NCBI RefSeq assembly: GCF_010183535.1
Contig: NC_071331.1
Coordinates: forward strand, 2,108,001 to 2,172,000
DNA from: Caenorhabditis remanei
Lineage: Eukaryota > Nematoda > Chromadorea > Rhabditida > Rhabditidae
Reading direction: 5' to 3'
DNA length: 64,000 bases
Positions 1 through 61,946 of the stretch are shown in pieces; positions within the stretch are counted from its first letter, which is position 1, and every line of letters begins with the position of its first letter. The translations under genes and the position numbers were made by a program. Below the pieces are notes generated by a model. The model was not told where the DNA came from. It did not search any database and worked only from the letters and a program-made list of their open reading frames with translations.

Positions 1-2940
1 TTTACAAAAAACAGGGAAATGAGCATTAAGAGATTTGTGCATTCAACAACTGATATCTCAAGAATACAGACATTTTTGTGTGTTTTTTCTCTTTGGAACG
101 TGTTTAAAATGCTCAAAAATGTATATAAACAAGCTTTTTCAGAATTTGAGCGGATTTTTTCAAAGAATCGATTTTCGTGTTACCGACGCGCAGCAGTTTT
201 GTTGAATTTTTTAGATATTTTTCATAAAAGCTCAAACACTAAGCCGTAAACACTTATAATTTTTGTTTCAAAACTTAGAGCACTCTTTTTTCTATCTTCC
301 GGTCAAATTTCATTAAGTTTGACAAAAGAGGCACCGAGAAATCATTTTTCAAAATACTTCTACTTTATCGCATATCTTTCTCTGCAGAATTTTTGCCAAA
401 AAACCGAATTTCTCGAAATTAGAGTCGCAAAACGCAATAAATAAGCATAAAACAGTTTTATTAGGTTTACAATATCTCATTCAGCCAGTTTTCATGTCAC
501 GAACGTGATTTTTTTGAGTAAAAACTGTCTTTTACATCATTAAAAAGTTGCACTTCTTGGTCGAGCTCTAGCGCAAAATCGAAGTCGGCAACCGCCATGT
601 ATTTTTATAAATTCAAAATCAGCGTGATTTTATCTTTCATTTAACACCAAAAAATAAAATCTGGACTAATAACTTTTTGAGAAATTCGACATTCAAAACA
701 CCTAATTTTGTTGCGATTTCGAAATTTCGCTGAGAAATTTGAGCCGGATTCGCGAAAACGAAACGCTAAAAATATAGTTTTTTGAAAAATATCGATTTAT
801 TGTGACATAATCAATATATATCTTCATTTCTAGCTTTCGGGAATGTTTACAATTCATTATTTAATACTCTGACTTTTTGCACTGTTTAGTAAAAATCACT
901 GGGAAATAGCTATGATTTCTACGGCCCGATCTCGAAAATGAGATCGGCAGCCTATACAATTTTTTACATTTTTGGATTCAGCATGTTTCAAGCTACAAAT
1001 TTATATGATTTTTAATAATTTTGACAAATAATTTTTCGAGATATCGATGATCAAATCCGAACGCATTTTCCTTTTGGCGATGAAAATCAGCTTTTTTCTC
1101 GAAGCAACAGCGCAAAAACGATGTCGGTAACCCTTGTGAATTTTGACATATTTGGATTACTCGTGTTTTGATCAACATATTTATGCTTGAAAATCTCACT
1201 TTGACTAATTACTTTTTGAGAAATCGCGAGAGAAAAAAGTACGAAATTTCCTGTGCTTAACAGTGGTGGCCGAACTTTTGCAATTTTCGCGGCCACCGTC
1301 GTTGTGGCTACGCCGTGTCACACTGATTAATTTATATTTCAAAATCTGTTGACACAACCTTACCAGAGTTTTTTAAAATTGATTTTTCTATCTGACAAAT
1401 TTTCGAGCCAGCTGTTCTATAATTGGCAATTCAAAAGGAGAAGATTAACTTTAAAAATTGGATCTTTGTAAATGAACGGAAGAGGAAACAGTGATCAATA
1501 CAAAAATACAGAAAGGATACAAATGATGCTGTTTATATTATCAGTGGAGTTCTGCTGGTAACTTTATGTTGATTATTCAAATTTTCGAAATTTAAGGCAA
1601 TTTTTTTGGCTGAAGGTGTGTGGCTGAAGGCGTGGGAGAGGCACATTTTTGTTACTGAGACTGTCTCTTAGGTTTAGGTTTCCTAGAAATATGGAAAATT
1701 GACAAAAACTATTGATTTGTCAATTTTTGTCGTTTTTGTCAAGTTTTTTCCAAATTTAGTCAAATTTCAGTTTCAAACAATCAGGTTATTGGAGCAAAAA
1801 TAATTGCGTAAGTGACCAAATATTCCCCTACTTAATTTAAATAGTAATCGGACAGAAAATGTTTTTCCAAATTTTCAACTACTTTTTGTTTTTAGAGTTT
1901 CTCAAAACTTATAAAAACGTTTGAATGTTTCAGGAATATCTCAAAGTAAGAATAAAAAAGCAGCACTTAATCCTAGATCCAAATTCATGTTTCCATTAAA
2001 ACCGTTCATATTTGATTATTGAAACTATCAAAGTTATTGTAAACAGAAATTAAAAAAGTCTAAGAATTGTCACATTAGTCATCGTTTTTTGAAAGGACAG
2101 AAATCTGTTGTTCTATACAACAATTGATGCAACGCAGTTGTGCATTTTATCAACAACAAAAGCCTATCCAGTGACATTTTTTGTTTGAAAGTTTTGCTAA
2201 CAATAAAACGATTTGGAAACCGTCAAAAAATAAATAGTAAAAGAAGTTGAGAATTTAAAAAAGATTGATCTTTCAACACAAAGGAAATAAGTATCCAAAT
2301 TATTGTTGTGCATTCACACAAATTTTTGAATTTGAGGTTTTTTTGTGAAAAATCGTTGTTTTGTTGTCGGAGTACACTTATGAAATTGCAGGGCTTTCCA
2401 TAAAAGTCAGCAAGGAATCGACAGTTTCAATTGGGTAAAAATTTTAAACTCTGAAACCGAAGAAATATGATGTTCGTAAAATATTGACAAGATTTGAAGT
2501 TGCTGTTTCAATATACTCATTGAACACCGTTTCCATGTCCGGTCGGATTCCACTTCTCTGAGTTTCTCATTTAGATTATCAAAGAGTGTTCATTAGTTCT
2601 CGTGTACATATTTTCAGTAGGACCTTTCACAGCAACATAGTTTAACTGTTTTATATAACTTTTTTATTCAACTTTTTTTGAAAAATTGTAATGAATAGAG
2701 ATGGGCTGTAGACTACCTATGTTTTGTCAAGTATTCAGTGTGGAGTTACACTAAACTTGCGAGAGTTTGAGCTTAAACTATGATGAAGTTATTTTTAAAC
2801 AAAAAGTTTATTGGAAAGCCACCAAAGCAATACGAAAAACAAATGAACCCTATTTTGGCGATCCCGAGAAACCGAAAAATGCGATTTGAACATGTTTTTC
2901 AATGTTGCTGACCAGAACAGAGAAATCACGCAAATTTGAC
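1..2940. other. AT-rich intergenic stretch without a gene
   Basis: No convincing open frame or splice-flanked exon is visible on either strand. Short runs of A and T recur at roughly helical spacing in the first 1.3 kb, which resembles the periodic An/Tn clusters described in C. elegans germline and piRNA regions; I could not compute the periodicity. One exact piRNA-type motif lies at 2503. Confidence 0.4.
2503..2510 (+). promoter_or_regulatory. 21U-RNA (piRNA) upstream motif CTGTTTCA
   Basis: Exact 8-mer core of the type I piRNA promoter motif, in AT-rich flanks. A YRNT start context places a candidate 5' U at 2543, 40 nt from the first base of the core. No small-RNA data are available. Confidence 0.55.
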
Positions 2941-4070
2941 TGTTTCTTCAATATTTCTTAATAATTTCATGATGTTCAGTTATGATGTCACTTGTTTGTA
3001 ACTATTTCAGCTCGAATAATTGTTCTTCGAAACAGAAAGGTTGTAATAACTTCGTAAAGAAATTTCCAGTTTCATCGGCTTATTATTACGAGGAACACAA
3101 AAAAATTGATTGAAATCATAAAAACTACTTCTCTGAAAAATATACTATGATGCAGAACAATTTCTTGTTATTTTTATACGACTATAAAAAGTGGAAATAA
3201 TTATATTTCAGAACTTTTTTAAACTATAAACCCCAGAAACATAATACATTCTTCAGTTATTTTTGGCAACCAAGACTATCTGAACAAACTGTGCAAAAAA
3301 TATAACAGAGAAAACGTTTTAATTCTGCTCTAAAGCTATTGTGATCGTTTAAAAAATTCAAACATTTGTTTAAGACAAGTAGGATGTTGTTTTTCACTAC
3401 TCAAAATTAGTAATTACTCACAATATTTCACAATGCTATTGCTGTAGACTACATAGTAAATGGAATAATTTCATCCAATCGATCTCTACTAGAATATTAA
3501 GTAATGTCTAGAAAACATACATTTTCATTGAATCCGTAAAACCCTTTGAAATCTGTAACTAGTGTCTAAAATTCCAGTTTCATTGTTCTTGTATTTCAAG
3601 TACTCAACCTGAACATTAATGAGCCATCGTTAAAAAAAGAATATTGAAAAAGTGTTAAAAATCCTTGTTCCCGGAAAAAAGTGGATGCAGAAAGGACCCA
3701 TTAAAAATAGTTAAAATGTCTGCAAAAAACATTATCGTTGAAACTGTAAACATCAGTTGTCCAATAAAATCTTTAAAGCTAATAAGGTTCACTGTTGCAA
3801 TGATTTCAATTGACAAAATGAACATTGCAGAGATATTAATAGTAGGAGCATATACTTTTTAGAGTGTCGAACAAATAATTACAGATTCACGAAAGTTTTT
3901 TCAGGTTTCAAACGTGAATTTGATCGCTGATAACTCGGACAACACAAAATTGGAATTTTAGTTTTCCCCGTCAGAAATTAACAATTCCAGGAAATTTCTG
4001 GCATTGCTTTATCACATTAATGGAACATCATAAACATCAAAAATAATTGTCTCAAAATTAGATTTCATTT
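2941..4070. repeat. Low-copy segmental duplication 1, copy a
   Basis: This stretch is collinear with 12365-13665 at high but imperfect identity with small indels. Shared landmarks include the segment after 'ctcgaataattgttcttcg' and the one around 'aaaaaagtggatgca'. A more diverged piece of the same family is seen near 19150-19290. No gene is recognised inside. Confidence 0.7.
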
Positions 4071-4503
4071 TCAATATTCCAATAACTCAAGCTTCCTGAA
4101 GCCAATTATCCTCACTCCACTTTGTACTCTTCCTCTCCATAACGTGTACCGTATAGGCATGACGTGACTTATCCGAAGTGTTGGCTTCACTCTTATGAAC
4201 AACCAATCCATGGATCAGAATCAAGGATCCCTTGGAAATTGGAACATGTTGGAATTTGAATTGATCGTAGGTTTTACGGGTGCCAATGAATTTGAGGAGT
4301 GGGCCCCCGATGGTGTCATGGGTTCGAACGAATCGGTAGTCACAGGTGGATGTGTCTGGAAAACGGATTTCGAAACTTCCCATTCCTTGAACTAATCTCT
4401 TTGGAAGATATAATAATTTGTGCCTTTTTTGAAAATGTAAAAATATAAACATAAAAATGTTGAGACCGCCACGCTCCTCAACACCCCTACTCCTAGTTTC
4501 TAT

Positions 4504-4823
4504 CATCACAGGTAAAGCGCGATGGATCCATTATGGATGAAACGCGGATGCTGTGGGTATGTCAGATGGATCCATTATGAATCCATATGGATCCACGAGC
4601 GGGCGGCATCCATTTAGCACCAGGCGTGGACTGATATGGATCCTATATGGATGCACGCGCGATCCACGGAAATTCGAGGGCGACCGCCATCCTCCCCCAT
4701 CCATATTCCATCCGCGCGCGATCCGCTTTTTAAATGTGGACGCATTAGGGATCCTATGTGGATCCATATTCGATATGGACGCATATGGACCCACAATGGA
4801 TCCATCGCGCTTTACCTGTGATG
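4504..4823. mobile_element. MITE with ~30-bp terminal inverted repeats, rich in ATGGATCC
   Basis: The ends are inverted copies: CATCACAGGTAAAGCGCG at 4504 and its complement ending at 4823, continuing inward through GATGGATCCATT. The interior repeats ATGGATCCAT-type palindromes many times. It lies inside intron 2 of the PHYHD1-like gene and ends at the base before the tRNA-Asp gene. I see no clear target duplication, so the superfamily is open. Confidence 0.75.
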
Positions 4824-4895
4824 TCCTCGGTAGTATAGTGGTGAGTATCCGCGTCTGTCACATGCGAGACCCGGGTTCAATTCCCGGCCGGGGAG
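4824..4895 (+). tRNA. tRNA-Asp (GTC)
   Basis: A full 72-nt cloverleaf. The acceptor stem TCCTCGG pairs with CCGGGGA (one G-U). The D-arm contains the conserved GG, and the anticodon stem CGCGT/ATGCG has one G-U. The anticodon GTC is at 4857-4859, the T-arm is CCGGG-TTCAATT-CCCGG, and G is the discriminator. A T6 run (4900-4906 region) follows directly and would serve as Pol III terminator. The gene lies antisense within intron 2 of the PHYHD1-like gene. Confidence 0.95.
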
Positions 4896-5629
4896 AAATC
4901 TTTTTTATTTTCTTACCTTTATAACTTCCCGGAATGAACGAAAGACATCCATTTTCCACACTCGCCTCGTCTATAGCAATCCACACTCCAGTCAAATGAT
5001 CAATTGGGTCCACTCGAAGGAATGTAGAATCCACGTGGTCAGTGACTGCTCCTCCGATCTTCGGCTGCTTGAAAATATACATACTTCGCACAACTTCAGG
5101 CTCCTGGTATCCGATTTCCTTGAAGACTTTTCGAATCTTGGTGTTGAAAGTTGGGTTAAGGAAATGGAGACCGTGTACTATTTTATTGAGTGTCTTGTCT
5201 TTTGGGACCGTAAGCTCTCCATTCTTGTCAACGGCACCTTCCTCGAAGAAAAATCGGATTTTGTAGGAACTGTTGAGGAAGTACGAGTCGGCGGCGTGCT
5301 GGAAATGAAGAAAAACTAACTCTGTTTCGAAAAATCCATTTCAGCATTAAAGCTTTATCAGTAATAATACAAAGTTGCATACGACGACTGAAATAAAATC
5401 TCACCTTATTCTCATCATACGTAAAAAAACACACTCTTCGGGTGCTCCGCCAGATTCATATCATCCACAATTTCTGCTATCGCCCCCTTTATTTCCTAGA
5501 TTTCCTGATCGCTGAACACATTCTCAATCACCACGAAACCATCTCTCTCGAATTTTTGAGAAAGGTCGGACATTCTGGGAATTTCAATTGGTGGAATTAC
5601 TTCAATAGATTTTTTTAAAAGTAAACTGA

Positions 5630-5637
5630 TGAAACAG
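5630..5637 (-). promoter_or_regulatory. 21U-RNA (piRNA) upstream motif CTGTTTCA
   Basis: Exact core on the minus strand, upstream of the PHYHD1-like start codon. A YRNT context gives a candidate 5' U at 5596, 41 nt from the core start. Confidence 0.5.
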
Positions 5638-5681
5638 TAAAAAGTGAAATATTAAAGAAAATAGACATGGGAGGTAAAAAG

Positions 5682-6005: not shown

Positions 6006-6349
6006 GTAAAAAAAGGTCACGTAAACTGAACTATATTGGAGATAGCAATGAGAAACGGCTATTACTGTGAAGTTTTCATTAAAATATCTAAAAACAATGA
6101 GCTCAAACTATTAATAAGAAAACATATCTGCGGAAAATGTCACCGAGCAGTAGCGGTAAAATTTTTAGAAATTCGGTCCAAATTCCAGTCTTGAACTGAT
6201 TTATCCATAATTCAGTGGATTATCCATAATTCAGTGGCGACGATTGGTGTCCATGGTGGAGCCAATGATTTGGTGTGAACGGATGGATGTTTTCGTTCTA
6301 ATGATCTATAATTGTAATCTGACTGAACTGCAGAACGATAGAGAGTTCA

Positions 6350-6357
6350 TGAAACAG
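6350..6357 (-). promoter_or_regulatory. 21U-RNA (piRNA) upstream motif CTGTTTCA
   Basis: Exact core on the minus strand. The nearest YRNT would start an RNA at 6311, 46 nt away, slightly longer than the usual spacing. Confidence 0.45.
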
Positions 6358-6852: not shown

Positions 6853-6860
6853 CTGTTTCA
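6853..6860 (+). promoter_or_regulatory. 21U-RNA (piRNA) upstream motif CTGTTTCA
   Basis: Exact core. YRNT context gives a candidate 5' U at 6892, 39 nt from the core start. Confidence 0.5.
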
Positions 6861-6993
6861 ACTCTTGCGTTTAGATACTTGTATAGTTTACTATGTACTA
6901 CGTTTTCACTTTATACAATTTAAAATTTGCCGGAAAAAATGTGCATGTTTCAGAATTATTATAATTTTGTGTTCGATTTCTGATTTCCGATAC

Positions 6994-9065: not shown

Positions 9066-10414
9066 TAAAAAGGCTTGAAGAGACACATACAAATCTCTTT
9101 TGTTTAGTAAGTAAAGCAGTAAAAGTTTTTAATAACTTTTGAAACTCTTACTGTTTTGGAACTGGATCTTTTCACTTGATGATTGAGTAACAAAGAAAGT
9201 AAACTTCGGAACCAACGTTACCAAATTTTGAAAGAGACAATTGCATTACATTGAAACTGAAATAGGAATCAGGAATATCTGTAGCTTTCGAATTTCACCC
9301 TCTCACTATTATTTAATCGAAAACGGGATACTAAAAAATATTATATTGCAGTTTCAAACTAGTAAAAAAGTACAGAATAGTAATTCCTGCATAATCTCAC
9401 CTTTTAGTTGTAAAAGTACGTGAAACTCAAGAATAAATATTGAATGAAAGTTTGTCAGAAACAAATGTGATTTAAGAAACGGAGATGATTAATTAATTTC
9501 AAAAGCAACAAAGACAATTATTGGTACAACTTTTTGGTTTTTTACAATATTATTCGCTGTAACACAAACCAGTTGAAACTGAAACATGTTTATTTTTTGA
9601 GAAGATTAAAATATCAAGTATGTTTCAGCAGTTTGTTATTCACGTTTGCATATAGATTACGCAATCGAAATGCCACAAAATAATCTGTTGCTGAACAGCT
9701 TGAATTCATCGTTGCAGAATCTTGTTATCTTTTAGAAAGTTGCTTTTTTGCATTAAAGAGCAATAATTTGTTTTGAGTCAAGTAAGAATTAAAAGCGACG
9801 CTCATCAAAAATTCGAAATCTACACAAGATTATGATAATTCTGAAACATGCACAAATTTTCCGAGAAAATTGAAATTGTCTAATTGATCGGAAAACTTGA
9901 TTTTCCCCTCAAGAAATCTTGTGAAAGAAACTAATTATTGAAAGCTGGGGACAAGAAATACGACCGTTATGAAACCTATTGTGGCAATCATCAGAAAATA
10001 AGTAATGTAGGCGTGAATTTCGAAGCCGATAATAAATATCTAAACGCAAGAGTTCAAACAGGGCTACAGTGCAAGAACAATAACTATTGGTCCGACTTTT
10101 TTGGTTTTTTCTACACCTCATAACGATATTTCGATCACAATATTATGTGATTCGCTGTAAAACAAAACAGCTGAAGCTGAAACAGGTTTATTTTTTGAGA
10201 ACATTAAAATAGTATTTTTCAACAGTTTGTTATTGAAAGTTGCGGTTTGTTATTAAAGAGAAATAATTAGTACTGACACAATAAGTATTGAAAACACTTT
10301 TTCTTATTATCAAAATTTTGAAATTGAGCACAAAGTTATGATATTTCTGAAACATGCACAAATATTCCGACAAAATTAAAATTGTCTAAGTGATAGTATT
10401 TGTACACATGGCAT
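9066..10414. other. Intergenic stretch without a recognised gene
   Basis: AT-rich with several partial internal repeats: the segment around 9530-9610 recurs near 10130-10210, including a CTGTAA-acaaaac stretch. Small open frames on both strands near 9910-10120 show no homology that I recognise. Confidence 0.35.
10178..10185 (-). promoter_or_regulatory. 21U-RNA (piRNA) upstream motif CTGTTTCA
   Basis: Exact core on the minus strand. YRNT context gives a candidate 5' U at 10142, 43 nt from the core start. The repeated segment near 9590 carries the degenerate form TGAAACAT. Confidence 0.5.
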
Positions 10415-10841: not shown

Positions 10842-10849
10842 CTGTTTCA
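10842..10849 (+). promoter_or_regulatory. 21U-RNA (piRNA) upstream motif CTGTTTCA
   Basis: Exact core in AT-rich flanks; no clean YRNT at 38-46 nt downstream. Confidence 0.4.
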
Positions 10850-11082: not shown

Positions 11083-11090
11083 CTGTTTCA
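11083..11090 (+). promoter_or_regulatory. 21U-RNA (piRNA) upstream motif CTGTTTCA
   Basis: Exact core, 241 bp after the motif at 10842 and on the same strand; no clean YRNT at 38-46 nt. Confidence 0.4.
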
Positions 11091-12364
11091 ACACCTTCTG
11101 AATATATCTCTTCAATGATAAGAATTTCAATTCAATACGATCCGTTCGTTCGAAAGTGTCATATGGTCAACATACGTGCTGAATAAGAATACCCCATGTG
11201 TTTTTGGAATGACAACAGACACACGGATGGACGGAATAGAAGAGGACTTTTACATATGGACTGTGGGGCAGATGCGTTAACACATGGACATGAGATGGAA
11301 AAGAAGGAAATGGAGTTTTGTTGAATTGGCAGAAACATTAATTGGAATCTAAAATCATCATAAAAATGCAGCTACTCACCACGGCGTCGGGAAAACGACG
11401 AGGGACTAGAAAAATCGTGCGATAGATACGCAGCCGAGGTACGCAGCGAAAAGTACAGTAACCCGAAAAAATATTTTTTCGAGTATCGAAAAGCTTGTCG
11501 ATCTCCGAATTCCGAATGAAATTTGATGAAAAATTCCACTAGAAACGTTTATAACACTAATTTTGATTTTTTGAAGAAAAAAATATTTGTGAAAAATTTA
11601 CAAAAAAAACTCTCCAGAGTACTGAGTATCAGATTCAAAAAACCACTTTTTCAGGTTTGAGAACACCCAGAGAGCGCAATTCTCAGTCCACACATTGTAC
11701 TTTCCTCACATCGTTAGAGTAAGAACTCCACTATTTATTGTTTATAAATAAATAGCCCGACCATACGCGTGTTGGGTGAAAAAGTACTAAGAACCAACTT
11801 AGGTCCGTGATGAGCCATCTCATGTTGTTTCAAAACGTGTGGTATGTAACGACGAATTTTCTCATTCCGATATATGGTTTCCATCCATGAACTACAATTA
11901 CATAAGTCACCCTTAATAAAGTTGACAACCTACAAGTGGTTTGACACAGATTCGCTTATACGATTCCCTGCTATAACTCCAAATCTAGATCTGACTGCTG
12001 AAAGAGAAGAACTTCTTAAGTCAGATCCAAGTTTCTTGTTTCGAATCTTTTGAATTAAAATGTATTTGCGTTAAAACAAAAAGACCTTTGTTAACATACA
12101 CCAGCAACTTCTTTTTTAATAGCATAATTTTTAGACCAGAAACGATTGAAAACAAAATAACGTTTCAAAAACGCAAAAAGTTGCTTGTAAATCAAAGCTC
12201 CGCTCTCGGCGGGAAAAAGATCCATAAGTAAAACTTTGAAACTGTAACAAGTACTTGAGTTGTTCTACCAAACACAAAAAAGACCATATCGAAAAACGAC
12301 TCCTGTGCCGAGAAATCAAAACGACAACCGGCAAGCTCGAAAATTGCAGAAAATTATGAATCAA

Positions 12365-14029: not shown

Positions 14030-14375
14030 CATACTTGTCAACGGGCCGGCTCGTAACTCGCGTCAAAATGAAAATTATAAGCTGAAAAATATACCAAAAT
14101 GTAGATCTCGACGAGTTCTATGTCCGTGACCTACTACTGGCCGGATGACTATTTGTTAATATGCCGCGGCCGGCCATTTGGCCATTTTCGCGTTTTTGGC
14201 ACTTTTTCCCGGCCCGATGCACATTAACGAATAGCCATCCGGCCCGTAGTAGGTCACGGGCATAGAACTCGTCGAGATCTACATTTTGGTATATTTTTCA
14301 GCTTATAATTTTCATTTTGACGCGAGTTACGAGAGCCGGCCCGTGTCGGCCTGTTTCGGCCCGTTGACAAGTATG
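14030..14375. mobile_element. Palindromic hAT-like MITE, CATACTTG family
   Basis: Almost the whole 346 bp is one inverted repeat around a GC-rich centre near 14200. The ends are CATACTTGTCAACGGGCC and its complement. A perfect 8-bp duplication GAAAAAAT flanks it (14022-14029, 14376-14383). The paralogous site near 8458 has no insert. As RNA it would form a very long hairpin. Confidence 0.88.
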
Positions 14376-14584: not shown

Positions 14585-14592
14585 TGAAACAG
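14585..14592 (-). promoter_or_regulatory. 21U-RNA (piRNA) upstream motif CTGTTTCA
   Basis: Exact core on the minus strand; paralogue of the motif at 8840 in duplication 2. Confidence 0.4.
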
Positions 14593-14855
14593 GGTATTCT
14601 GTTTATCACAAACAGATATATCGACAAAAACGCAATACATTTAAATTTTGAGCCAGATAATAGATCGACATGATCAGATTAACAATATCTTGAGAGTTAT
14701 ATTGATGGAACTCGGAAACAGTCAAATTTCTGTACATTTTCTCACCGTAAAGGCTTCATTTCATTCCGTGCAGTATATGAAGTACTCAGTTATACAAGAC
14801 ACAAAAAAAGGGAGGAATTGTTTTTGTCCAATTTCATTTTGAACTATGAAAACCA

Positions 14856-14863
14856 TGAAACAG
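14856..14863 (-). promoter_or_regulatory. 21U-RNA (piRNA) upstream motif CTGTTTCA
   Basis: Exact core on the minus strand, followed at once by a second GAAACA half-match. Nearest YRNT start is at 14817, 46 nt away. Confidence 0.42.
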
Positions 14864-37738: not shown

Positions 37739-37739
37739 A

Positions 37740-46404: not shown

Positions 46405-47724
46405 ATGATGATGAAAGGAGAAGTGCCCCATTCATGGAAAGTCTCCATTGTCATCCCCATCCAAAAAGTACCCAAACCCTCCAAACCAGTCGACTACCGA
46501 CCAATTAGTCTAACCTCGCATCTGTGTAGACTTTACGAGCGCTGTGTTCTTGCCAAATTGATCCCCTATCTGGATGAAATAGAGTTTTGGAGTCCGAATC
46601 AACATGGATTCAGACCAAAACGGTCCACAGTGAGCAATATGCTCGAGACCTTAAATGACTGGACCTCAACGTTGGATGGTAAATCACAAGTGGATGTATT
46701 ATACCTCGACTTCTCTAAGGCATTCGACAAAATCCCCCACGACCTCCTCCTAGAGAAACTTATTGCGCTTCGGCTAAATGAGCACCTGATCAAATGGATA
46801 AATAACTTCTTAAGCGACAGAACTTTTAGAGTCAAAGTGGGGGACAAGCTCTCCTCTTCTCACGCCGCCCCCTGCGGGGTTCCACAAGGGTCCGTACTTT
46901 CTCCTATTCTATTTGGCATCTATGTGAACGAAATATCCTCGCTTCTCCCTAAAGGAGTACAATGCAAACAGTTTGCGGATGACACAAAACTATATGCGCC
47001 TGTCTCAAATATGAACACAAATAATACCCTCCAACAGGCGTTAGATATTATCTCCACCTGGTCCCAGGAGGCCAAGCTCCCTCTAAACAACGCAAAAACG
47101 GTAGCAATGACAATAGGAAAGTGTAGACACAACGTCACCTACTCCATAGGGGGACTCCAAATCAAAAAAGAGAATATAAATAGGGACTTAGGATTTCTTG
47201 TCTCAACCAAACTAGACTTTACGGAACATTGGAGGAAAGCCACAAACACAGCCAAACATCTCACACACCAAATTTTTCATCAGTACAGCAGCAAAAAGAC
47301 ACGCCTAATGTCGCTTCTCTATAAAACATTTATCAGACCAGTTCTTGAATACGGTACATCAATTAGCGCTCCCATGAAAAAGTCAGACATAAAAATGATA
47401 GAATCCATCCAAAACTCCTTCACACGAAAACTCTACAGTAGGCAAAAAGGGAGATATATACCCATAAATGACCCAGACTATAAAACAGCAGAGCAACGCA
47501 ACCACCTATACGGGCTCCATTCGCTCCACGACCGAAGACTGGGAATAGACAAAACACTTATAAGCAAGATGATCCTTGGTAAAATAGATTTAAAGCTTAC
47601 TGACTTTTTCACACTATCCACTAATAGCAGAACCCGTGCGAGTCCACGATTTATCTGGAAGGCTCCTAAAACCAAACTTCGAAAACACTTCTTTGTAAAC
47701 CGCGCCTTGAGCAAAATCGGTTAG
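46405..47724 (+). CDS. Non-LTR retrotransposon reverse transcriptase, 5'-truncated
   Basis: 439 codons with no stop, the longest frame in the window. Family motifs in order: DYRPISLTS (residues 30-38), the catalytic YLDFSKAFD (100-108), GVPQGSVLSP (158-167) and FADD (190-193) with the two catalytic aspartates, followed by the thumb and a C-terminal region. The upstream endonuclease and ORF1 are absent. The first ATG at 46405 is probably internal to the original ORF2, because upstream codons (FDERFES) also read like ORF2. After a ~190-bp 3' UTR comes a (TAAA)n tail at about 47909-47931. The type is CR1/jockey-like, common in nematodes; the exact clade is uncertain. The catalytic residues are intact, so the insertion is probably young. 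It sits inside the TCTCGAGA element. Confidence 0.95.
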   Translation: MMMKGEVPHSWKVSIVIPIQKVPKPSKPVDYRPISLTSHLCRLYERCVLAKLIPYLDEIEFWSPNQHGFRPKRSTVSNMLETLNDWTSTLDGKSQVDVLYLDFSKAFDKIPHDLLLEKLIALRLNEHLIKWINNFLSDRTFRVKVGDKLSSSHAAPCGVPQGSVLSPILFGIYVNEISSLLPKGVQCKQFADDTKLYAPVSNMNTNNTLQQALDIISTWSQEAKLPLNNAKTVAMTIGKCRHNVTYSIGGLQIKKENINRDLGFLVSTKLDFTEHWRKATNTAKHLTHQIFHQYSSKKTRLMSLLYKTFIRPVLEYGTSISAPMKKSDIKMIESIQNSFTRKLYSRQKGRYIPINDPDYKTAEQRNHLYGLHSLHDRRLGIDKTLISKMILGKIDLKLTDFFTLSTNSRTRASPRFIWKAPKTKLRKHFFVNRALSKIG

Positions 47725-47932: not shown

Positions 47933-48294
47933 ATCTCTCGAGGAATCTCTCGAGAGATCTCTCAAAATCCTGATCTCTCGAGAAAAAAATATCGAGAGCA
48001 CACACTGCAAGTATTAACATTTATTATTTAAATTTTTATATTTTTTCCAACTTACCATTTAGAATTTAATAAAAATAAGTAGTTTTCATAAGGAAAACTT
48101 TTAAAAATAGGAGGTAGAACAGCAATCGGCCGTTCAAAGGGGGGAATAAATGATGAAATAGTATTCGAATGAGGCAATGTCTTCCTCTTCATTGGTATAT
48201 GTTCAGTGAGGCGCCCTTGCTGAGTAAACAAAGGAGAAGGGAGCGGTAGAAGAACAAATACTCTTGTTCAGGCAATCTTACCAAATAGGAGAAG

Positions 48295-48302
48295 TGAAAC
48301 AG
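48295..48302 (-). promoter_or_regulatory. 21U-RNA (piRNA) upstream motif CTGTTTCA
   Basis: Exact core on the minus strand in the recurrent 'taccaaataggag' neighbourhood; no clean YRNT. Confidence 0.42.
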
Positions 48303-49010: not shown

Positions 49011-50139
49011 TTTTGATAACACGAAACTAAAACGGTCGATCAATTTAAGTAAAAATTGTCTAATAATAAATAAAACATTCTCGAAACAGAGATATCAAAA
49101 AAATTGTGTGAGTTTTACTGATTTCCAGATTTATTGAAACACTCGTTTGCTTAGCAAAAAATCAAACACCACTAATTTTTCCAGACATTTAGAAGCTTTG
49201 AATTTTTGGATTTTGCAAATGCATAATCCAAGTTTCATTAATTTCTAAATATGAGTTGTCTGAAACAGTGAAATTTTGGAAAGTGGTATTTATAAAAACT
49301 TCACTTATCCGTATCTTCACGATTCCAGTTACTTTGCTTTCTTCTCCATTGCTTCGTTGGTTCAATTTTATGTCTACTGAATGGCACCATCTCAATATTG
49401 CTAGATTTGAACTTATGCTAATGAAATGCTTCTGGAACAGTAATTTTTACTCTTTCATCCACACGATTTAATGCTTTGGATCGGTGGAAGATGATAACTT
49501 TTATAATTATGTTTTCATGTGTCTACATCACAAAAACAGCAGATTCTGATTATTTAAACTTGATATGAAATGAAGATTGCCAAAAATAAAACCATTTCTA
49601 AACGAAAATCCACTCACACAGTTATCAATGTCTTTCTCTTTTTCTGAAGGCTGTAACAGAGGGATATTCAAAAACTTGAACTATTTTAGGTGAAACTTTT
49701 AAATGTTTACTCTCCATTTCCTGTTAAAACGAAGTGTAATCAATAAAGTTTTCAAATTAAATGTTCTTGTTGCAGTAAAATTATTTTTTTGAGAGAAGTT
49801 TTGGTGGTACCATTCTAATTGAATGGCTTATTGGCATTCAAATCACAATCATAGACGGATAACGAGTTTTCGAAAAAGTTGTCTCCCAGGTCAGTCCAGA
49901 TATCATCATGAATGAATGTGCGAAACTTCACATCAAGAGAATCTATATCAATCTTCCAAAAATTAACACTAAAACCGTTTTTTTAATTTCTAGTACAAAA
50001 CGTTGGTCGGTTTTTCTTGAAATCATTTTCTTTTGAATCTATTGAAAATATGAGAACGTGCTTTCCGATAACGTGAAATTTCACTTGGAAAGAACATCAG
50101 GACGAAGGACATCAATTTTTCATCTGATCCAAGACGCGT
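49011..50139. other. Intergenic stretch without a recognised gene
   Basis: No supported exon. One exact piRNA-type motif at 49261. Confidence 0.35.
49261..49268 (-). promoter_or_regulatory. 21U-RNA (piRNA) upstream motif CTGTTTCA
   Basis: Exact core on the minus strand; no clean YRNT. Confidence 0.4.
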
Positions 50140-51201: not shown

Positions 51202-51209
51202 CTGTTTCA
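51202..51209 (+). promoter_or_regulatory. 21U-RNA (piRNA) upstream motif CTGTTTCA
   Basis: Exact core; nearest YRNT start is 51247, 45 nt away. Confidence 0.45.
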
Positions 51210-52011
51210 CCATGACCATTTTCTGCTTGACATTTTTCAGAATTGCTGATATCGTTCCATTCCATTTGGTCGAACGTGTTCATTGTCTCAATTATGGATC
51301 CAAAATTTGAATCTGTTCAAAACTTTCAGAGTTCTGATAGAAAGCCGGCCAAGCTTTGAGAAAGAGAATTTGTTCTCTGTTTGAAGATTTAATGGAAATC
51401 GTATGCAACGAGTTGTGTAGTAGACGACTTTTTTTATATGAAAGTTCTGGAACACGATAATTATTTTTAAAGTTTCAAGCATCGTGGCTAGTTCAGATAG
51501 TTTTACAGTTTCTGATTTTTGTTATATTGAACTTCATAGTGTCTACAAAGTTTCCTCCCTATCATTCTCGATTTCCAAACTTCCAATTCGCTACTGCCCT
51601 CATCATTTCATCCCTTTTCGCCCGTCTGTTCAAAATTTCTGGAGTGCTTCTTCTTCTTCTTCTTCAACTACATCATCTGCCTTTCGGCTAGCTTCTGCTC
51701 TCGGAGCCATACGTGGCAGGCAGCTGGAGAGAGGGGAGAACGACGAATCGAGAATCTAATTGCAACGAGGAACGGAAGAAAAAGGGAAAGGAGGAAGGGA
51801 AAATGCGGGAAAAAGATGAGAAGAAAGGGAAAATGAGGAGGAGGAAGGGGGATGGTAATGATGGGTGTGAAATGTGTTGAATGAGGTCTTTAGAAAACTG
51901 GAAAGGCGTTATGTCATGTAAACCCGTCTGAAATGTCAAAAAATGAGCTCTAACCAAAGTTCAGACTATTATTTAGAAAGTGAGCAAATACACTCTCAGA
52001 AAAAAAGTGAT

Positions 52012-52019
52012 CTGTTTCA
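52012..52019 (+). promoter_or_regulatory. 21U-RNA (piRNA) upstream motif CTGTTTCA
   Basis: Exact core. YRNT context gives a candidate 5' U at 52053, 41 nt from the core start. Confidence 0.52.
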
Positions 52020-52164: not shown

Positions 52165-52172
52165 CTGTTTCA
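52165..52172 (+). promoter_or_regulatory. 21U-RNA (piRNA) upstream motif CTGTTTCA
   Basis: Exact core preceded by a T-run; no clean YRNT. Confidence 0.42.
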
Positions 52173-52787
52173 TGCTGATAAAGTAAGATATTTAAGTTCG
52201 GAAAATCGTATTGAGTCTTTCAAACTGTGTAGCTTCAAAACGCTTTTTTTTTCGGCATGCGATGTTCTCAAAGTGGGTTTCTTTTTTCAAAATTCACTTG
52301 AACCAAAGTTTGGCAGTGTGCCACGGTGTCAATAGTTGTCTCTTCGTCAACAGCTTTTCTTTTATAATTGACAACTTTTTTGTACGAGCTCTTTTTTACT
52401 GAGTTATAGCCTGTTAAACTGAGAGCACTCTGAAAATTATTTTTATTGTATAGCTGTCCAATGAGATGTCCTGCCAAAAAATGGTCAACTAAAGAAATGA
52501 AGTTTTAAAGTTGTTTTGGGTTCTTTAAAAAAAGCGGGATCATTTGCAAGATCATGCCCGCCTCTCGAAATGTATTAATCTTGTAAAGTTTACTGTTGCA
52601 ATGAGATCTGAAAAAATAACAGACACTGAAAAAACTGATACGCGTTTAGCAAAAGTACTATTCTATTAATTATCGTTTATTGCCAGTTTTTGAAAAAAAG
52701 GTTTGTTTTCGGTTTCACTTTTCCTTTTCAATTATTTGAAATTTTGCTGCACTAGTCAACATCTCAGAAAATATTTGTCACAGTGCC

Positions 52788-52795
52788 CTGTTTCA
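52788..52795 (+). promoter_or_regulatory. 21U-RNA (piRNA) upstream motif CTGTTTCA
   Basis: Exact core; nearest YRNT start is 52834, 46 nt away. Confidence 0.42.
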
Positions 52796-53108
52796 AAATC
52801 TAGATATCTTCCGTCTCTTTTTCTTGTGAGTAGTTCTATGCTTCCTCTTAAAATTATTCAACAAAATCCCCCACCTGCAATAATCTATGGGCCCCCAAGT
52901 GTTTTTCCAATCTCCATCCCAATCACCTGTGCCCCACCTGGAATCCTAAAAATAAAGCCACAGCAGGTGTCAATTCATACACACACCTGTGTTGTACGCC
53001 CGATGACAATAAGTATTCTATTTCGTGGAGACCGCCCGTTTTCCGGGGGCAGGTGGTGGCGAAGGATGGGGTGCCGCTCTTTTGGCACATGCCGAAGATT
53101 CTTTTCGG

Positions 53109-55606: not shown

Positions 55607-56077
55607 TTAGAAAGATGACGTCGGCGAGGATTCTGGAGACGAGGCAGGGGTGTCAGGTCGCGACGTAAACGGGCTGACAGATGCGGAGCTGGTGAATAAG
55701 TGCTCGAATCCGGCGGGCAGCGAGTTTTCTTTTCCGGATAACTGGGCTTGGAGCTCTCGGATATGGGCGATGGTGGCCAGGACGAGCTCATATTGGTCGG
55801 CGTCTTCCTCGGCGGCGACTAGTTGACGGAGACGGTTGGTGACCTGGTAAATAAAAAAAGGTTAAAAAATTTTTTCTGTTTCAAAAAAGGTGAAATTCTT
55901 TGTTTCAAACTTTATTCTCAAAATTTACTGTTTCAAAATTTCCAATTATTTTAAAAACTCCAAAATTACCTTTACCTTTTCCACTCTCTCTGCCGACGTG
56001 GATTTCAGTATCTTTTTGGATTTCAGGGAGACATGACTGATGACGTCGCGTGGTGGTCGGGCAGTGGAATTTTTCAT
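55607..56077 (-). CDS. Small helix-loop-helix-like protein, two exons
   Basis: Exon 1 is 56077-55976 (ATG in a good AAAATG context; donor gtaaag, with an alternative gtaatt six bases on). Exon 2 is 55843-55607 (acceptor atttaccag, stop TAA). Both are in phase 0 and give 112 residues. Residues 28-45 (SAERVEKVTNRLRQLV) and about 53-71 (YELVLATIAHIRELQAQL) read as two amphipathic helices split by a short acidic loop, like helix 1 and helix 2 of HES/REF-1-type bHLH proteins. The preceding basic stretch (SKKILKS) is weak, so DNA binding is doubtful. The tail (80-112) is rich in Ser, Pro and Thr. GC content is clearly above the surroundings, which supports a real exon. The intron holds two opposite-strand piRNA-type motifs. 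HLH identity is an inference; it could be another two-helix protein. Confidence 0.55.
55876..55883 (+). promoter_or_regulatory. 21U-RNA (piRNA) upstream motif CTGTTTCA
   Basis: Exact core in the intron of the HLH-like gene, antisense to it. YRNT (TATT) gives a candidate 5' U at 55916, 40 nt from the core start. A TTGTTTCA variant lies between this and the next motif. Confidence 0.52.
55928..55935 (+). promoter_or_regulatory. 21U-RNA (piRNA) upstream motif CTGTTTCA
   Basis: Exact core, 52 bp after the previous one in the same intron; no clean YRNT. Confidence 0.42.
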
Positions 56078-56304: not shown

Positions 56305-57565
56305 TAAGAATGAGGTCGGCAGGGTGTGGAAGAGCACGGTAAAAAAAGGGGGAGGCTTGGGAGAGAAAAATAGAAGAGTGGGTAGGTTCCGGGTGGCTCC
56401 AATCCATTGGCTCAAGGGTATTATGGGTTGTACTTTCTCCGATAATAAGAATATCAGATGACCAAACCACACACTGCCCTAACTCAAAGATTCCCCAAAT
56501 CCGCAGTTTCTGAAACAGAAGATTTTTGCAGAGTTCTGACTTTTACTAGTTCTTCTCGCATTTTCTAACAAAAGTTAAAGTTGCCTTCAAGCAATCTGAA
56601 ACCAAAAGCTTGAAGTTTAGAGTAAATGAATACAATTGAAATCCTTCGAGTGTCCAATTTTACGGTTTTTCATAAAAATTCGATAACTTCTACCGTACGC
56701 CACGGCGTCACCAACAGTCCTATAGGCACAGTTTTCAGTAATAATGTAGATTAGCCCTAGGAGTTTATTTTGTAGTTTTATAGTTTTTGTAGTTTTTTGT
56801 ACTCTTTTGAAAAATCAATTATTGGAATGTTAAACTTATTTCTAAAGCTGCGACACTGTGTGAGCGCACATGAATAGGTCTTGTTGAGGCATACCTCGAG
56901 GTGTATTAGGGATACCAAAAACTAAAGTTTCGCATTATTTTATCTGTTTAAGCTGACAGTGAAAATGCAATCTTTTTTCTGAAAGTATTATGTTTCGAAA
57001 AAGTTATTAAATTTGTCCAAAGTGAGCATTAACTAATATTTCCATCAAATTGGTTTCTTTAAGTTAAAAATCTAGTTCCCATAATTTATTGATTAATTTA
57101 ATTATAGAATTTCCGGATAACTGGTACTTCACAGAAGGAAAGCATTGGAATAGTTTAATTAATTATAAAGTAAACTTTTTACTGATAAGTGAAAACAGAA
57201 GATAAAACAAAAATCTCTATAAACAAATAAAGCTCACTGTTTTGGATTTAGGATACATGTTGGTTTCACTGGTTAATTTATGATTAATTTATCTTCCTTC
57301 CATAATTGTCACCTGTTTGTTTCATTTCTAAATTGTTATATGTATGTACACAGAGAAGAAACACAAACCACAGTTGGTTCCCACTGAATTTCTGTTTCTG
57401 AAACATGTGAAATAAGTTTGGTGACGAAGTTTAAACGATGAGAATCCCACTGACGTGTTTTATGACACCGAACAGAAAAAAACTTGTATCCTCCGTTTCA
57501 AAGTACCGTCAAGACATTGTTGAATAGTTCTGAGTCTCTGGTGGTTGTTCGTTATCTTCTACTTA
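56305..57565. other. Intergenic stretch without a recognised gene
   Basis: No supported exon. One exact piRNA-type motif at 56511. Confidence 0.35.
56511..56518 (-). promoter_or_regulatory. 21U-RNA (piRNA) upstream motif CTGTTTCA
   Basis: Exact core on the minus strand; the sequence gtttctgaaac makes it part of a small palindrome. Nearest YRNT start is 56473, 45 nt away. Confidence 0.4.
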
Positions 57566-57786
57566 TTGTCGAAACAAACTTTCTTGACATTCGGTGTTTG
57601 CGGACCTAAACTCCCGCGCTTAAATTAAGCCACGCCCTCTTTCCGTTGTATCGACTATGATGTTAGTCAAACTCCCCGATATTTCCTGAATATATAGCCA
57701 AGACAACGGAAAGAGGGCGTGGCTTAATTTAAGCACGGGAATTTAGGTCCGCAAACACCGAATGTCAAGAAAGTTTGTTTCGACAA
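57566..57786. mobile_element. Tc1/mariner-type MITE candidate, long inverted repeats
   Basis: Arms of about 85 bp starting TTGTCGAAACAAACTTTCTT and ending with its complement ...CGACAA flank a ~45-bp centre. TA dinucleotides bound both ends (57564-57565, 57787-57788). 221 bp, non-coding. Confidence 0.8.
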
Positions 57787-57788
57787 TA

Positions 57789-58758
57789 TAATTTTCATTT
57801 TAGTGCTAATCAGTACTGTTTCAGGTCTTTATCAAAATCGGTAAAGTACGATTTGACTTAATTATACTGAACTCCCAAGTAATTCAAAGTTCTTCTTCCC
57901 ATCCAGACAGATGTATCATTTCTCTCCCTAAAGACCTCTTTTCCTGATGAAGAATAAGAAGTTGAGCCCCCCCGTCTCCTTCCCGAACAGCTGCCCATTT
58001 TCATTTCTGTGAGTCAGTTGGCTCAGAGCTTGCGCAAGTGAAAAAGGAACGACGGACCAGCTAGTACGAATTTGAAAGAAGTGGGAAAAAGGTGGCATTT
58101 GAAATGAAATATGGAGACGGAAAACCCTTTAAAAAAGGATGTTTAGGAAATGTAACATTTGTTCTTTCAAATTGTGGAATATATTTATGAAACCAGAAAC
58201 AGGAATAATATCAGAAAAATAATGTTTCAAATTGTGTTGAGATGAGAAAACAAGTTATCACAGTAATAAATCAGTAAAATTCAGCTTAAACGCAGTTTCT
58301 GAAATTTTTCTGAAATTCTGAATTTTCCAAACCACGTTCTTTTATTCTGGACTGTTAAACACTACTGCTTCATTCTCAACACACTAGTTTTGCTGATTTT
58401 AGAAAAATCTATCTTTTTGTGCCACGACTCTACAAAAAAAGTTAAAAACCTTCTAGTTTCAAACTATTCAACTTTTAAACTGAAGATTTGGTTGTGAACA
58501 AAACGAGTCGAGTCAAAATAACTACGATTAGATTTTGGTTACTCGGTTCCACAGGTGCAGACTTGTTCGTTCGAGATTTTTCCGGGGGATAAACAACACT
58601 CGTAGATTAAAAAAAACAGTTTTCGTGTCAGTTGTTTTAGAAAACAATACATTTTGTAGATAACATGTGTCCGTGGCTCCGCATGTACATGGTGATGATC
58701 AAATGACAATTTTATAAATTCTTCTCATCATCTGCTTAAGATTATGCGACATCTGAAC
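57789..58758. other. Intergenic stretch without a recognised gene
   Basis: No supported exon. One exact piRNA-type motif at 57816 directly after the MITE. Confidence 0.35.
57816..57823 (+). promoter_or_regulatory. 21U-RNA (piRNA) upstream motif CTGTTTCA
   Basis: Exact core. The nearest YRNT start (57852) is 36 nt away, slightly short. Confidence 0.42.
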
Positions 58759-59310: not shown

Positions 59311-59394
59311 ATCTGAACCATCTATATAAATTGCATATTTGAAACATCTAATTCTAAAAATTCTGCCAATATATCTTAACGTCCGGATGTCCAT

Positions 59395-60570
59395 TTTGAT
59401 AATTTTAAGGAAAAGGCATGCGTGGAAGACCGCGAGTGCAGTCCGTCCCATGTTCCTCCAATTCCTATCCCTAATTAATTAATTGAATAATTGTTAATAA
59501 TTTTAAGAAAAAGGCATGCGTGGAGGACCGCGAATACAGTCCGTCCCATGTTCCTCCAATTCCTATCCCTAATTAATTAATTGAATAATTTTTAATAATT
59601 TTAAGGAAAAGGCATGCGTGGAAGACCGCGAATGCAGTCCGTCCCATGTTCCTCCAATTCCTATCCCTAATTAATTAATTGAATAATTTTTAATAATTTT
59701 AAGGAAAAGGCATGCGTGGAAGACCGCGAATACAGTCCGTCCCATGTTCCTCCAATTCCTATCCCTAATTAATTAATTGAATAATTTTTAATAATTTTAA
59801 GGAATAGGCATGCGTGGAGGACCGCGAATACAGTCCGTCCCATGTTCCTCCAATTCCTATCCCTAATTAATTAATTGAATAATTTTTAATAATTTTAAGG
59901 AAAAGGCATGCGTGGAAGACCGCGAATGCAGTCCGTCCCATGTTCCTCCAATTCCTATCCCTAATTAATTAATTGAATAATTTTTAATAATTTTAAGGAA
60001 AAGGCATGCGTGGAAGACCGCGAATGCAGTCCGTCCCATGTTCCTCCAATTCCTATCCCTAATTAATTAATTGAATAATTGTTAATAATTTTAAGGAAAA
60101 GGCATGCGTGGAAGACCGCGAATGCAGTCCGTCCCATGTTCCTCCAATTCCTATCCCTAATTAATTAATTGAATAATTTTTAATAATTTTAAGGAAAAGG
60201 CATGCGTGGAAGACCGCGAGTGCAGTCCGTCCCATGTTCCTCCAATTCCTATCCCTAATTAATTAATTGAATAATTGTTAATAATTTTAAGGAAAAGGCA
60301 TGCGTGGAAGACCGCGAATGCAGTCCGTCCCATGTTCCTCCAATTCCTATCCCTAATTAATTAATTGAATAATTGTTAATAATTTTAAGGAAAAGGCATG
60401 CGTGGAAGACCGCGAGTGCAGTCCGTCCCATGTTCCTCCAATTCCTATCCCTAATTAGTTAATTGAATAATTTTTGATAATTTTAAGGAAAAGGCATGCG
60501 TGGAAGACCGCGAATGCAGTCCGTCCCATGTTCCTCCAATTCCTATCCCTAATTAGTTAATTGAATATTT
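59395..60570. repeat. 98-bp tandem repeat, 12 copies
   Basis: GGCATG[C]GTGGA recurs at 59415 and then every 98 bp exactly to 60493. Units are nearly identical ('gcagtccgtcccatgttcct', 'ccctaattaattaattga'); the last ones have 'aattagtt' instead of 'aattaatt', matching the two units in the paralogous block near 27.1 kb. Confidence 0.95.
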
Positions 60571-61600
60571 TTAAGTAGTTTAAAGGTGAAGTTTCCTTTA
60601 CTCACCTTATTTTCGTCTCCATCCCTTTTGTTCATCCATTGATGTGTTGTGGCCGTGGATCGTTGTGGTAGTTGGTGTTGACTTGACTGAAAATTTATCA
60701 ATTTTTTGAATGAGAAATCTATGGAATCTCGAAAGATATCTGAAGAGTTATAAATGGGTCGAACGCAATTAGAAACAGAAAGAGAGCCCAAAAAAGAGGG
60801 CTGCTCGGTATGGAAGTGAAAGGGATAACTGACTGTATTCCACCCGTCTCACCATCTAGTCTGGGGGCGTGGCATAATTGTCCTCATCTGTCAGATTTCC
60901 CATCAAGATAAGTGACAGGTGCGAGTTTTTGTGGCAGAGTAACATAGGCCGTCATTTATCTTCCTGGGAAATCGGATAGATGATGACAATGTGTGAATTC
61001 GTTGACGTGTTCAATGTAGATTGAGACATCTACTGTTTACTTAATCTACCGCAGTGGGAATCAATAACAAGGGGACAAGTCCCAGGGAAGAAAAAATAGG
61101 GAAAAAGAGTTTGAAAGAGTGAGTTGAAAGAAAATTTAAAATACCGATTAGTTTTAAAATTTGAAGAAAGACGTGTAGAAAATGGGATTGTGGCTTGAAC
61201 ATAAAACAGGTCTAACTTGAAAATTTAATTTTTTTCAAAGTGATACTTTGATATCTGAAATGTGATTTTTGATGCTCTCAATTAAAGAAAGGAAAGTTTT
61301 GGAAAAATTCGTATCTCAGCTAATTCTAGTTTTTGAGAAATCTAAAGAATTAAGAATGAAATGTAGAGAGTTGGAAACGCAGATAGGTAGAACGCAATTA
61401 GAAACAGAGAGAGCCCAAAAAGAGAGGTCTGCTCGTGAAAGGGACAACTGACTGTTTTCCACATCTAGTCTGGGGGCGTGGCATAGTTTCCATCATCTAT
61501 CTAATTTCCTAGGAAGATTAGTGACAGATGCGAGCGTTTGTGGCAGAGAATAACAAAAAAGACACAGCCCGACATCTTCACATACATGATTGATAACCAA
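60571..61600. repeat. Segmental duplication 3, copy b, unique-sequence part
   Basis: Collinear with 27180-28720 except that the 28116-28276 inverted repeat is absent. It contains two copies of a segment ending 'gcgtggcata' (about 60860 and 61480). Confidence 0.7.
61269..61451 (+). CDS. Putative terminal exon encoding a charged coiled-coil segment
   Basis: An uninterrupted frame ending at TGA with strongly helical, heptad-like sequence (KERKVLEKFVSQLILVF, then KELRMKCRELETQIGRTQLE and AQKERSARERDN). Related but degraded stretches occur at about 27345-27440, 28290-28420 and 60750-60840. An upstream partner exon was not found, so this may be a gene fragment carried by duplication 3. Function unknown. 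Confidence 0.35.
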   Translation: MMLSIKERKVLEKFVSQLILVFEKSKELRMKCRELETQIGRTQLETERAQKERSARERDN

Positions 61601-61858
61601 AAAGCAATTCCAACCTGAACTATGTCTGGGTAGCAAACTTCTAAAACGGTATTCCGCACTTTTTTAGTGTGAAAATATAATGCTTGTCAGAAAAGGAGGT
61701 AAAGCTGATGAGGGATGAAATGGGTGAGAATTCCAAAAACGTTCGGTCTGAGCCAAAATCTGGAAGCTCATATCTCTGATCGAATGGTCGAGTGTGTTCC
61801 AGTATGGTGTGTCATGCTTATTGAGTCGTTATGCAAATGTAATTTTCAAAAAAGTAAA

Positions 61859-61866
61859 TGAAACAG
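61859..61866 (-). promoter_or_regulatory. 21U-RNA (piRNA) upstream motif CTGTTTCA
   Basis: Exact core on the minus strand; the paralogous place in copy a reads AGAAACAG (about 40755), so the motif differs between copies. Nearest YRNT start is 61820, 46 nt away. Confidence 0.4.
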
Positions 61867-61938
61867 GAAATTCACCACTTCTGATGACTCTCTCTCTCGG
61901 GACTACTTGACAAACTGGTGATGACAGATTCAAAATGA

Positions 61939-61946
61939 CTGTTTCA
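61939..61946 (+). promoter_or_regulatory. 21U-RNA (piRNA) upstream motif CTGTTTCA
   Basis: Exact core with YRNT (TGTT) giving a candidate 5' U at 61981, 42 nt from the core start; identical architecture to the paralogue at 40835. Confidence 0.6.

Follow-up and report, generated by a model that had tools for sequence, protein, structure and literature searches.

Putative type I 21U-RNA promoters in a chromosome IV domain of Caenorhabditis remanei, with duplicated copies that differ most in the predicted guide

Introduction

What might be encoded by a stretch of nematode DNA in which one 8-mer, CTGTTTCA, keeps recurring on both strands? We put this question to 64,000 nucleotides of chromosome IV of Caenorhabditis remanei (C4:2,108,001-2,172,000, on a chromosome of 25,790,997 bp), a stretch that we call the window throughout and that an earlier note had read as a cluster of genes for 21U-RNAs (Piwi-interacting RNAs, or piRNAs). 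As described in PMC6436959 and PMC9683057, the type I 21U-RNA genes of C. elegans are alike in having the CTGTTTCA core, a YRNT start (Y, pyrimidine; R, purine; N, any base), and a place on both strands of chromosome IV. Our answer is that the 34 exact cores of the window are very probably (at roughly 0.93) promoters of type I 21U-RNA genes, one small gene to each, in a domain that runs over much of C4, and we infer that many tiny germline guide RNAs are likely made from the window. As a part of such a domain the window is ordinary; it is newly mapped, in a species whose 21U-RNAs were already known from small-RNA sequencing (as reviewed in PMC6468775).

Frequency of the core motif

Recounting the exact copies of CTGTTTCA gave the same 34 that the earlier note had reported, 17 on each strand, with the first at 2503 and the last at 61939-61946, and alongside them were the one-mismatch forms CTGTTTCG (10 copies), CTGTTTCT (15), CTGTTTCC (5), and TTGTTTCA (11). 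Across the 130.47-Mb genome, the core occurs 19,000 times (9,483 forward and 9,517 reverse), as compared with 6,781 for the reversed-letter pattern; the genome mean gives 9.3 copies per 64 kb, against which the window is 3.6-fold enriched (Poisson p = 4e-10). How many copies are to be expected depends on the baseline. Base composition gives 2.5, which agrees with the two or three copies previously supposed, but the trimer, tetramer, and pentamer counts of the window give 6.0, 8.8, and 11.4, respectively, and the genome mean is likewise higher. Permuted 8-mers (n = 300) averaged 2.47 copies in the window, with a maximum of 19. Together with a permuted-core form of the extended motif, described below, these k-mer expectations and permuted 8-mers rule out chance or base composition as the source of the 8-mer. 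By p value, the core ranks 168th among window 8-mers with at least 10 copies and at least three different letters, a ranking made without satellite masking and a low place because satellite arrays top the list. After duplicates were collapsed by flank similarity, 28 of the 34 sites counted as independent.

Promoter architecture and predicted start site

The surroundings of the core were drawn from 149 cores (those of the window and of samples along C4), with full flanks for 145 and with 128 of them independent. At the independent sites, positioned letters flank the core, these being T at -3 and -2, A or T at -1, T at +14, and, as a second element, T, A, T at +17 to +19. Downstream of the 21-mer, where type I 21U-RNA genes are expected to have an A/T-rich stretch for pausing or termination, there are only small A/T bumps (0.77 at +71 and 0.78 at +74). 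A matrix of the flanks alone, built from 100 sites outside the window, gave the 28 independent window sites a mean score of 1.37, as against -3.36 for all window positions (p = 8e-12), and each of the 28 lay above the background median. By comparison, 740 permuted-core places had a mean flank score of -3.31. Among the variant forms of the core, CTGTTTCG/T/C, CCGTTTCA, and CAGTTTCA have promoter-like flanks (CTGTTTCG, 1.02; CCGTTTCA, 0.90; CTGTTTCT, 0.86; CTGTTTCC, 0.79; CAGTTTCA, 0.56), but those of TTGTTTCA (mean score -2.16, as compared with -3.36 for background and +1.37 for the exact core) are hardly promoter-like. We also iterated a full weight matrix on 1,132 training sites, though this drifted into a loose T-rich model and was set aside; its counts (109 with a score above 12 in the window versus 23 in the reversed sequence) suggest that there are more than 34 promoters and were otherwise unused.

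The start site is positioned as well. With offsets counted from the first C of the core and the T of YRNT taken as the predicted 5' U, the YRNT peak has its T at +46 in 41 of the 128 independent sites, where 9 were expected (p = 7e-17), and the neighbouring offsets +45 and +47 account for 25 and 19 sites, respectively. Altogether, 102 of the 128 have the T within +44 to +50 (42% expected). In the window itself, the T stands at +45 to +47 in 21 of the 34 sites, against a background of 20.2% (p = 1.5e-7), and anywhere in +43 to +51 in 27 of the 34, against 48.7%. The earlier caveat that YRNT is found at chance level therefore fails: the start-site context, discounted after a hand count over a broad range, is strong at the right offset.

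Distribution along chromosome IV

Four mutually exclusive patterns of the extended motif were searched genome-wide. These occur at 32, 37, 80, and 23 places, or 172 in all, of which 30, 36, 77, and 21, respectively, or 164, are on C4, yet this chromosome makes up 19.8% of the assembly (p about 1e-103). The eight places off C4 are on C2 (four), C6 (two), C3 (one), and C79 (one), while all 164 on C4 fall within three blocks at 0.60-13.01, 18.86-20.37, and 23.10-23.97 Mb. Read backwards, the same patterns have 0, 2, 0, and 2 places (four genome-wide), and the one permuted-core extended pattern tested has none in the genome. A subset of one of the four patterns, with 39 places, lies wholly on C4. 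Even sampling of C4 from 0.2 to 14 Mb (20 samples of 10 kb) gave 115 cores, 1-12 in each, which is 5.75 per 10 kb and close to the 5.3 per 10 kb of the window; the part of C4 past 14 Mb and all remaining chromosomes were assessed through the pattern searches. If cores outside C4 were only as frequent as the reversed-letter pattern, about 13,600 of the 19,000 would lie on C4. Thus, the motif is not spread evenly over the genome, an even density being what the earlier note had named as telling against its own reading. That reading as a piRNA cluster gains support from the confinement to C4, the flanks, and the start site, although the window proves to be a typical piece of a multi-megabase domain and not a discrete cluster.

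Some observations nevertheless count against taking the sites for promoters. No YRNT was found at +43 to +51 in 7 of the 34 window sites, and the flank score is below zero at 13 of the 34, for which reasons some of the sites may be dead. Moreover, long open reading frames (ORFs) are not avoided, since 6 of the 34 sites lie in stop-to-stop ORFs of at least 100 amino acids, which make up 19% of the window. The description of the sites as mostly in AT-rich non-coding DNA may hold in part: mean GC content up to 100 bases from the sites is 33.5% versus 36.0%, and exact cores are absent from both tRNAs, the PhyH region, the reverse-transcriptase ORF, and the three large satellite arrays of the window, but not from long ORFs.

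Elsewhere on C4, seven identical 23-letter extended motifs lie within 46 kb (C4:5414191-5460199), perhaps through recent amplification, on the spot, of a single piRNA-like promoter. Separately, three places on three contigs (C4:23713145, C2:1146267, and C79:17217) have one 23-letter extended motif in common, perhaps in a dispersed repeat that carries a piRNA-like promoter. As for recombination, the left arm of chromosome IV (to 8.64 Mb) is given in PMC10461856 as having 1.447 centimorgans (cM) per Mb, as compared with 2.5-5.2 cM per Mb in other autosomal arms, and roughly two thirds of the large piRNA block, by length, lies in this arm.

Comparison with known piRNA systems

A C. elegans construct derived from 21UR-3922, as given in PMC6436959, has the core atgtttca, taa at +17 to +19, and, directly after tga (the YRN), a U at +47, and the C. 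remanei sites share with it both the core-to-U and the +17 to +19 geometry. The C. elegans genes occupy two regions of 2.5 and 3.7 Mb (PMC6436959), whereas the C. remanei domain has three blocks (~0.6-13.0, 18.9-20.4, and 23.1-24.0 Mb); unlike the C. elegans 21U-RNAs, the C. remanei genes are predicted here from DNA sequence. According to PMC9683057, C. briggsae is alike in its Ruby motif, in its multi-megabase chromosome IV domains, and in guides that are not conserved, with clusters on chromosome I at 9.8-12.0 Mb and on chromosome IV at 0.02-7.1 and 13.0-15.0 Mb. However, the chromosome I block has no counterpart among the extended motifs of C. remanei, for which C1 holds 0 of the 172 places. 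Pristionchus-type piRNA loci also have the Ruby motif but are described in PMC6436959 as dispersed over the autosomes in active genes, whereas the C. remanei sites are nearly confined to one chromosome. Our mapping extends the known system to C. remanei at the level of a chromosome map.

If the mechanism is that of C. elegans, the CTGTTTCA element would be bound by the SNPC-4/PRDE-1/TOFU complex, and RNA polymerase II would start at the purine of YRNT to give a capped RNA of ~28 nt. Trimming of this precursor would yield a 5'-U RNA of 21 nt, which would be loaded on PRG-1 and bring about silencing via 22G-RNAs. Type I 21U-RNA genes are also characterised by a capped precursor that begins 2 nt upstream of the 21-nt RNA and by an H3K27me3 domain. 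Poor conservation of the guide is expected of type I 21U-RNA genes, and this is what we find, with duplicates diverging most in the guide.

Guide divergence between duplicated copies

Locally duplicated segments are numerous in the window. Three core-carrying units searched genome-wide had at least six, at least eight, and at least four matches, and since those listed all lie within C4:2.01-2.17 Mb, the units look like local duplications; a transposon carrying the motif is disfavoured on the same grounds. Between the copies at 40835 and 61939, the promoter is letter-perfect and the guide altered, while between those at 8840 and 14585 the guide region is unaltered. The guide effect was first seen in a discovery set of 20 families, in which the core is better preserved between copies than in 86 permuted-core families (identity of 0.906 versus 0.793), whereas the guide region at +47 to +66 is less so (0.712 versus 0.796 for the control), and in pairs with less than 85% identity these latter values are 0.586 and 0.730. 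The positional identity profile has its main trough from about +45 to +67.

As an independent test, 10 further pairs were chosen by motif letters, and three of these were dropped, two being without a difference near the site and one being unlike outside the motif (guide 0.45, neighbours 0.57 and 0.42). In all seven remaining pairs, the guide (+47 to +66, with gaps as mismatches) is less alike than the mean of +20 to +42 and +67 to +90, and in two of the seven the downstream stretch alone is less alike than the guide. Pooled, the mismatches came to 27 of 140 in the guide versus 24 of 329 in the neighbours (Fisher p = 2e-4, by hand count).

In a larger, position-anchored set, YRNT was present in 26 of 29 exact-core families and in 34 of 44 variant-core families, these 34 sharing no place with the exact-core families. 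Counted from the predicted U, the 26 exact-core families have a mismatch of 0.118 over -3 to 0 and, per five bases, of 0.277, 0.216, 0.289, and 0.153; past the guide it is 0.171 (+21 to +25) and 0.126 (+26 to +30). The 34 variant-core families follow suit (0.138, then 0.275, 0.210, 0.203, and 0.199, then 0.176 and 0.123), while permuted controls (143 families) are flat at 0.13-0.16. In a sliding 20-base window moved in steps of five, mismatch peaks at U+1 (0.228, n = 60). Divergence thus steps up just after the predicted U, which lends support, from DNA alone, to the predicted piRNA start sites.

In the BLAST alignments, the ratio of guide to flank mismatch is 1.76 in exact-core families (26 families; 19 higher, 6 lower) and 1.53 in variant-core ones (34 families; 27 higher, 7 lower), and the combined difference was reached by none of 100,000 control resamples. 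Global alignment took one pair per family and used 19 of the 24 exact-core and all 34 variant-core families with YRNT, families having been dropped if they were without YRNT, had too few aligned bases, or were without any difference. Here, the ratios are 2.04 (19 families; 16 higher, 3 lower; p = 2e-4) and 1.77 (34 families; 27 higher, 7 lower; p = 6e-5), and they are 2.15 (17 families) and 1.68 (23 families) when YRNT and four of the five letters of GTTTC are required in both copies. The underlying mismatch for exact-core and variant-core families, respectively, is 0.302 and 0.309 in the guide and 0.148 and 0.174 in the flanks, as compared with control values of 0.182 (guide) and 0.184 (flanks).

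Explanations for the guide divergence

The excess of guide mismatch over control DNA suggests either selection for change or locally raised mutation. On the former, copies would arise by local duplication and selection would then favour a change of guide, so that the chromosome IV domain might act as a guide-making engine, in which genes are copied locally, promoter included, and the 20 bases that follow the U are then pushed by diversifying selection to change at 1.5-2 times the local neutral rate. We put this forward tentatively, at rather less than an even chance, and several results tell against the guide effect itself. The later exact-core set pools the 20 discovery families with the motif-chosen pairs and so is not independent of the discovery. 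In the BLAST alignments the control too has an excess (ratio of 1.16, 136 families, p = 0.02), which is gone under global alignment (0.99, 110 families). The window families taken alone are not significant (7 of 10 higher, p = 0.053), and a lesser dip in identity lies at +90 to +99 (0.717 versus 0.819 for the control, substitutions only, pairs below 85%). YRNT is retained in 22 of 24 exact-core, 23 of 34 variant-core, and 87 of 121 control families, the variant ones thus doing no better than the control, and they change more in the second element (0.208 versus 0.152 for the control). Finally, the guide excess is present also in eight families whose copy has lost GTTTC.

Alternatively, the divergence could be mutational, in that the 28-nt transcribed stretch, opened by a paused RNA polymerase II, would mutate faster, with selection being unneeded. 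To this we give about the same chance, again rather less than even. It fits the persistence of the excess in those eight families, as well as the intermediate mismatch at +21 to +25 (0.171 and 0.176), which is in the precursor but beyond the mature 21-mer, and its fall at +26 to +30. However, mismatch is not raised at the YRN and the U (0.118 in exact-core and 0.138 in variant-core families); these too fall within the transcribed stretch or next to it, but promoter function could be what preserves them. Nor are transitions raised in the guide, where the transition/transversion ratios are 0.77 and 0.59, as compared with 0.96 and 1.10 in the flanks (values without a significance test), and because of this simple deamination is not favoured. 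As neither the YRN and U mismatch nor the transitions are raised, we lean slightly toward selection.

Less likely still is a relaxed constraint, by which the guide is free to drift while its flanks are constrained. Such drift would accord with PMC9683057, which concludes that there is little selective pressure on piRNA sequences, but the flanks are near the control loci in their mismatch, whereas the guide is well above the control at the same positions. Relaxed constraint would thus be insufficient, as it cannot exceed the neutral rate, on the assumption that the control DNA is near neutral. It is highly improbable that the 8-mer excess itself merely reflects T-rich composition, satellites, or local duplications. 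Some sites are indeed copies (34 reducing to 28), and a reverse-transcriptase ORF and large satellites are present in the window. However, the three large satellite arrays are without any core, independent sites have common positioned flanks and a start site 46 bases off, just 8 of 172 extended motifs are off C4, permuted controls are rare, and both of the observations that speak against a by-product, namely the single-chromosome confinement of the extended motif and the positioned start site, were made.

If selection does drive the guides apart, then piRNA guides would be under positive selection for novelty and not merely drifting, and the worm piRNA repertoire would resemble a diversified recognition repertoire. 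It would also say concretely how worms come by new piRNA genes, a question posed in PMC9683057. We saw no description of this guide divergence among the titles and abstracts that searches of open-licence full text listed.

Features of the window

Table 1. Core sites of the window. All cores are exact CTGTTTCA; positions of the 21U-RNAs (or of the U) are predicted from sequence, and offsets run from the first C of the core to the U.
Span	Strand	Core	Predicted 21U or U	Offset	Remarks
2503-2574	+	2503-2510	U 2554 (weak)	51	
5567-5637	-	5630-5637	U 5587	50	
6291-6357	-	6350-6357	6311-6291	46	
6853-6919	+	6853-6860	6899-6919	46	changed-core copies in L042, L038
8840-8847	-	core alone			no YRNT at 43-51; copy of 14585
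10119-10185	-	10178-10185	10139-10119	46	
10842-10849	+	core alone			no YRNT at 43-51
11083-11151	+	11083-11090	11131-11151	48	
14585-14592	-	core alone			no YRNT at 43-51; copy of 8840
14797-14863	-	14856-14863	14817-14797	46	copies: L038, L039, L040, 23546
15200-15267	-	15260-15267	15220-15200	47	
18068-18135	+	18068-18075	18115-18135	47	
25016-25081	-	25074-25081	25036-25016	45	
28585-28653	-	28646-28653	28605-28585	48	
29459-29527	+	29459-29466	29507-29527	48	segment resembles that of 61859
29527-29593	+	29527-29534	29573-29593	46	
29886-29953	+	29886-29893	29933-29953	47	paralogue of 42106: guide changed, promoter kept
40304-40371	-	40364-40371	40324-40304	47	segment resembles that of 42425
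40835-40900	+	40835-40842	40880-40900	45	paralogue of 61939, L030: -4 to +19 identical, guide changed
41479-41544	-	41537-41544	41499-41479	45	
42046-42113	-	42106-42113	42066-42046	47	top flank score of the window
42425-42432	-	core alone			no YRNT at 43-51; segment resembles that of 40364
48237-48302	-	48295-48302	48257-48237	45	lowest flank score of the window
49198-49268	-	49261-49268	U 49218	50	extended motif
51202-51267	+	51202-51209	51247-51267	45	
52012-52019	+	core alone			no YRNT at 43-51
52165-52232	+	52165-52172	52212-52232	47	
52788-52854	+	52788-52795	52834-52854	46	
55876-55883	+	core alone			no YRNT at 43-51
55928-55935	+	core alone			no YRNT at 43-51
56453-56518	-	56511-56518	56473-56453	45	
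57816-57882	+	57816-57823	57862-57882	46	
61800-61866	-	61859-61866	61820-61800	46	
61939-62004	+	61939-61946	61984-62004	45	paralogue of 40835

Pfam scanning of 20 of the 37 long ORFs of the window matched PhyH in two, reverse transcriptase in one, and, below threshold, a kinase in one, with the other 16 of the 20 having no match; an Rfam scan of the window found two tRNAs and nothing else. The PhyH-family gene is on the minus strand at 4087-5340, and as a plus-strand tRNA-Asp (4824-4895) is placed between its two PhyH-matching stretches, this tRNA is probably intronic. Related 119-bp satellite arrays at 20525-22977 and 33073-37741 run in opposite directions, are alike over 2.5 kb (83% identity), and contain no exact cores. 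A 98-bp tandem array at 59394-60586, with 12 copies and 97% matches, has a related partner stretch 32 kb away at 27002-27802. Palindromic short tandem repeats of the TCTCGAGAGATC type are found at 45623-45810 and 46231-46384, the second of which overlaps the start of a 498-amino-acid open frame with a reverse-transcriptase domain (46228-47724). Lastly, self-complementary stretches of 185-450 bp at 14041-14344, 28104-28288, 32520-32969, and 57564-57788 are possibly short palindromic DNA elements.

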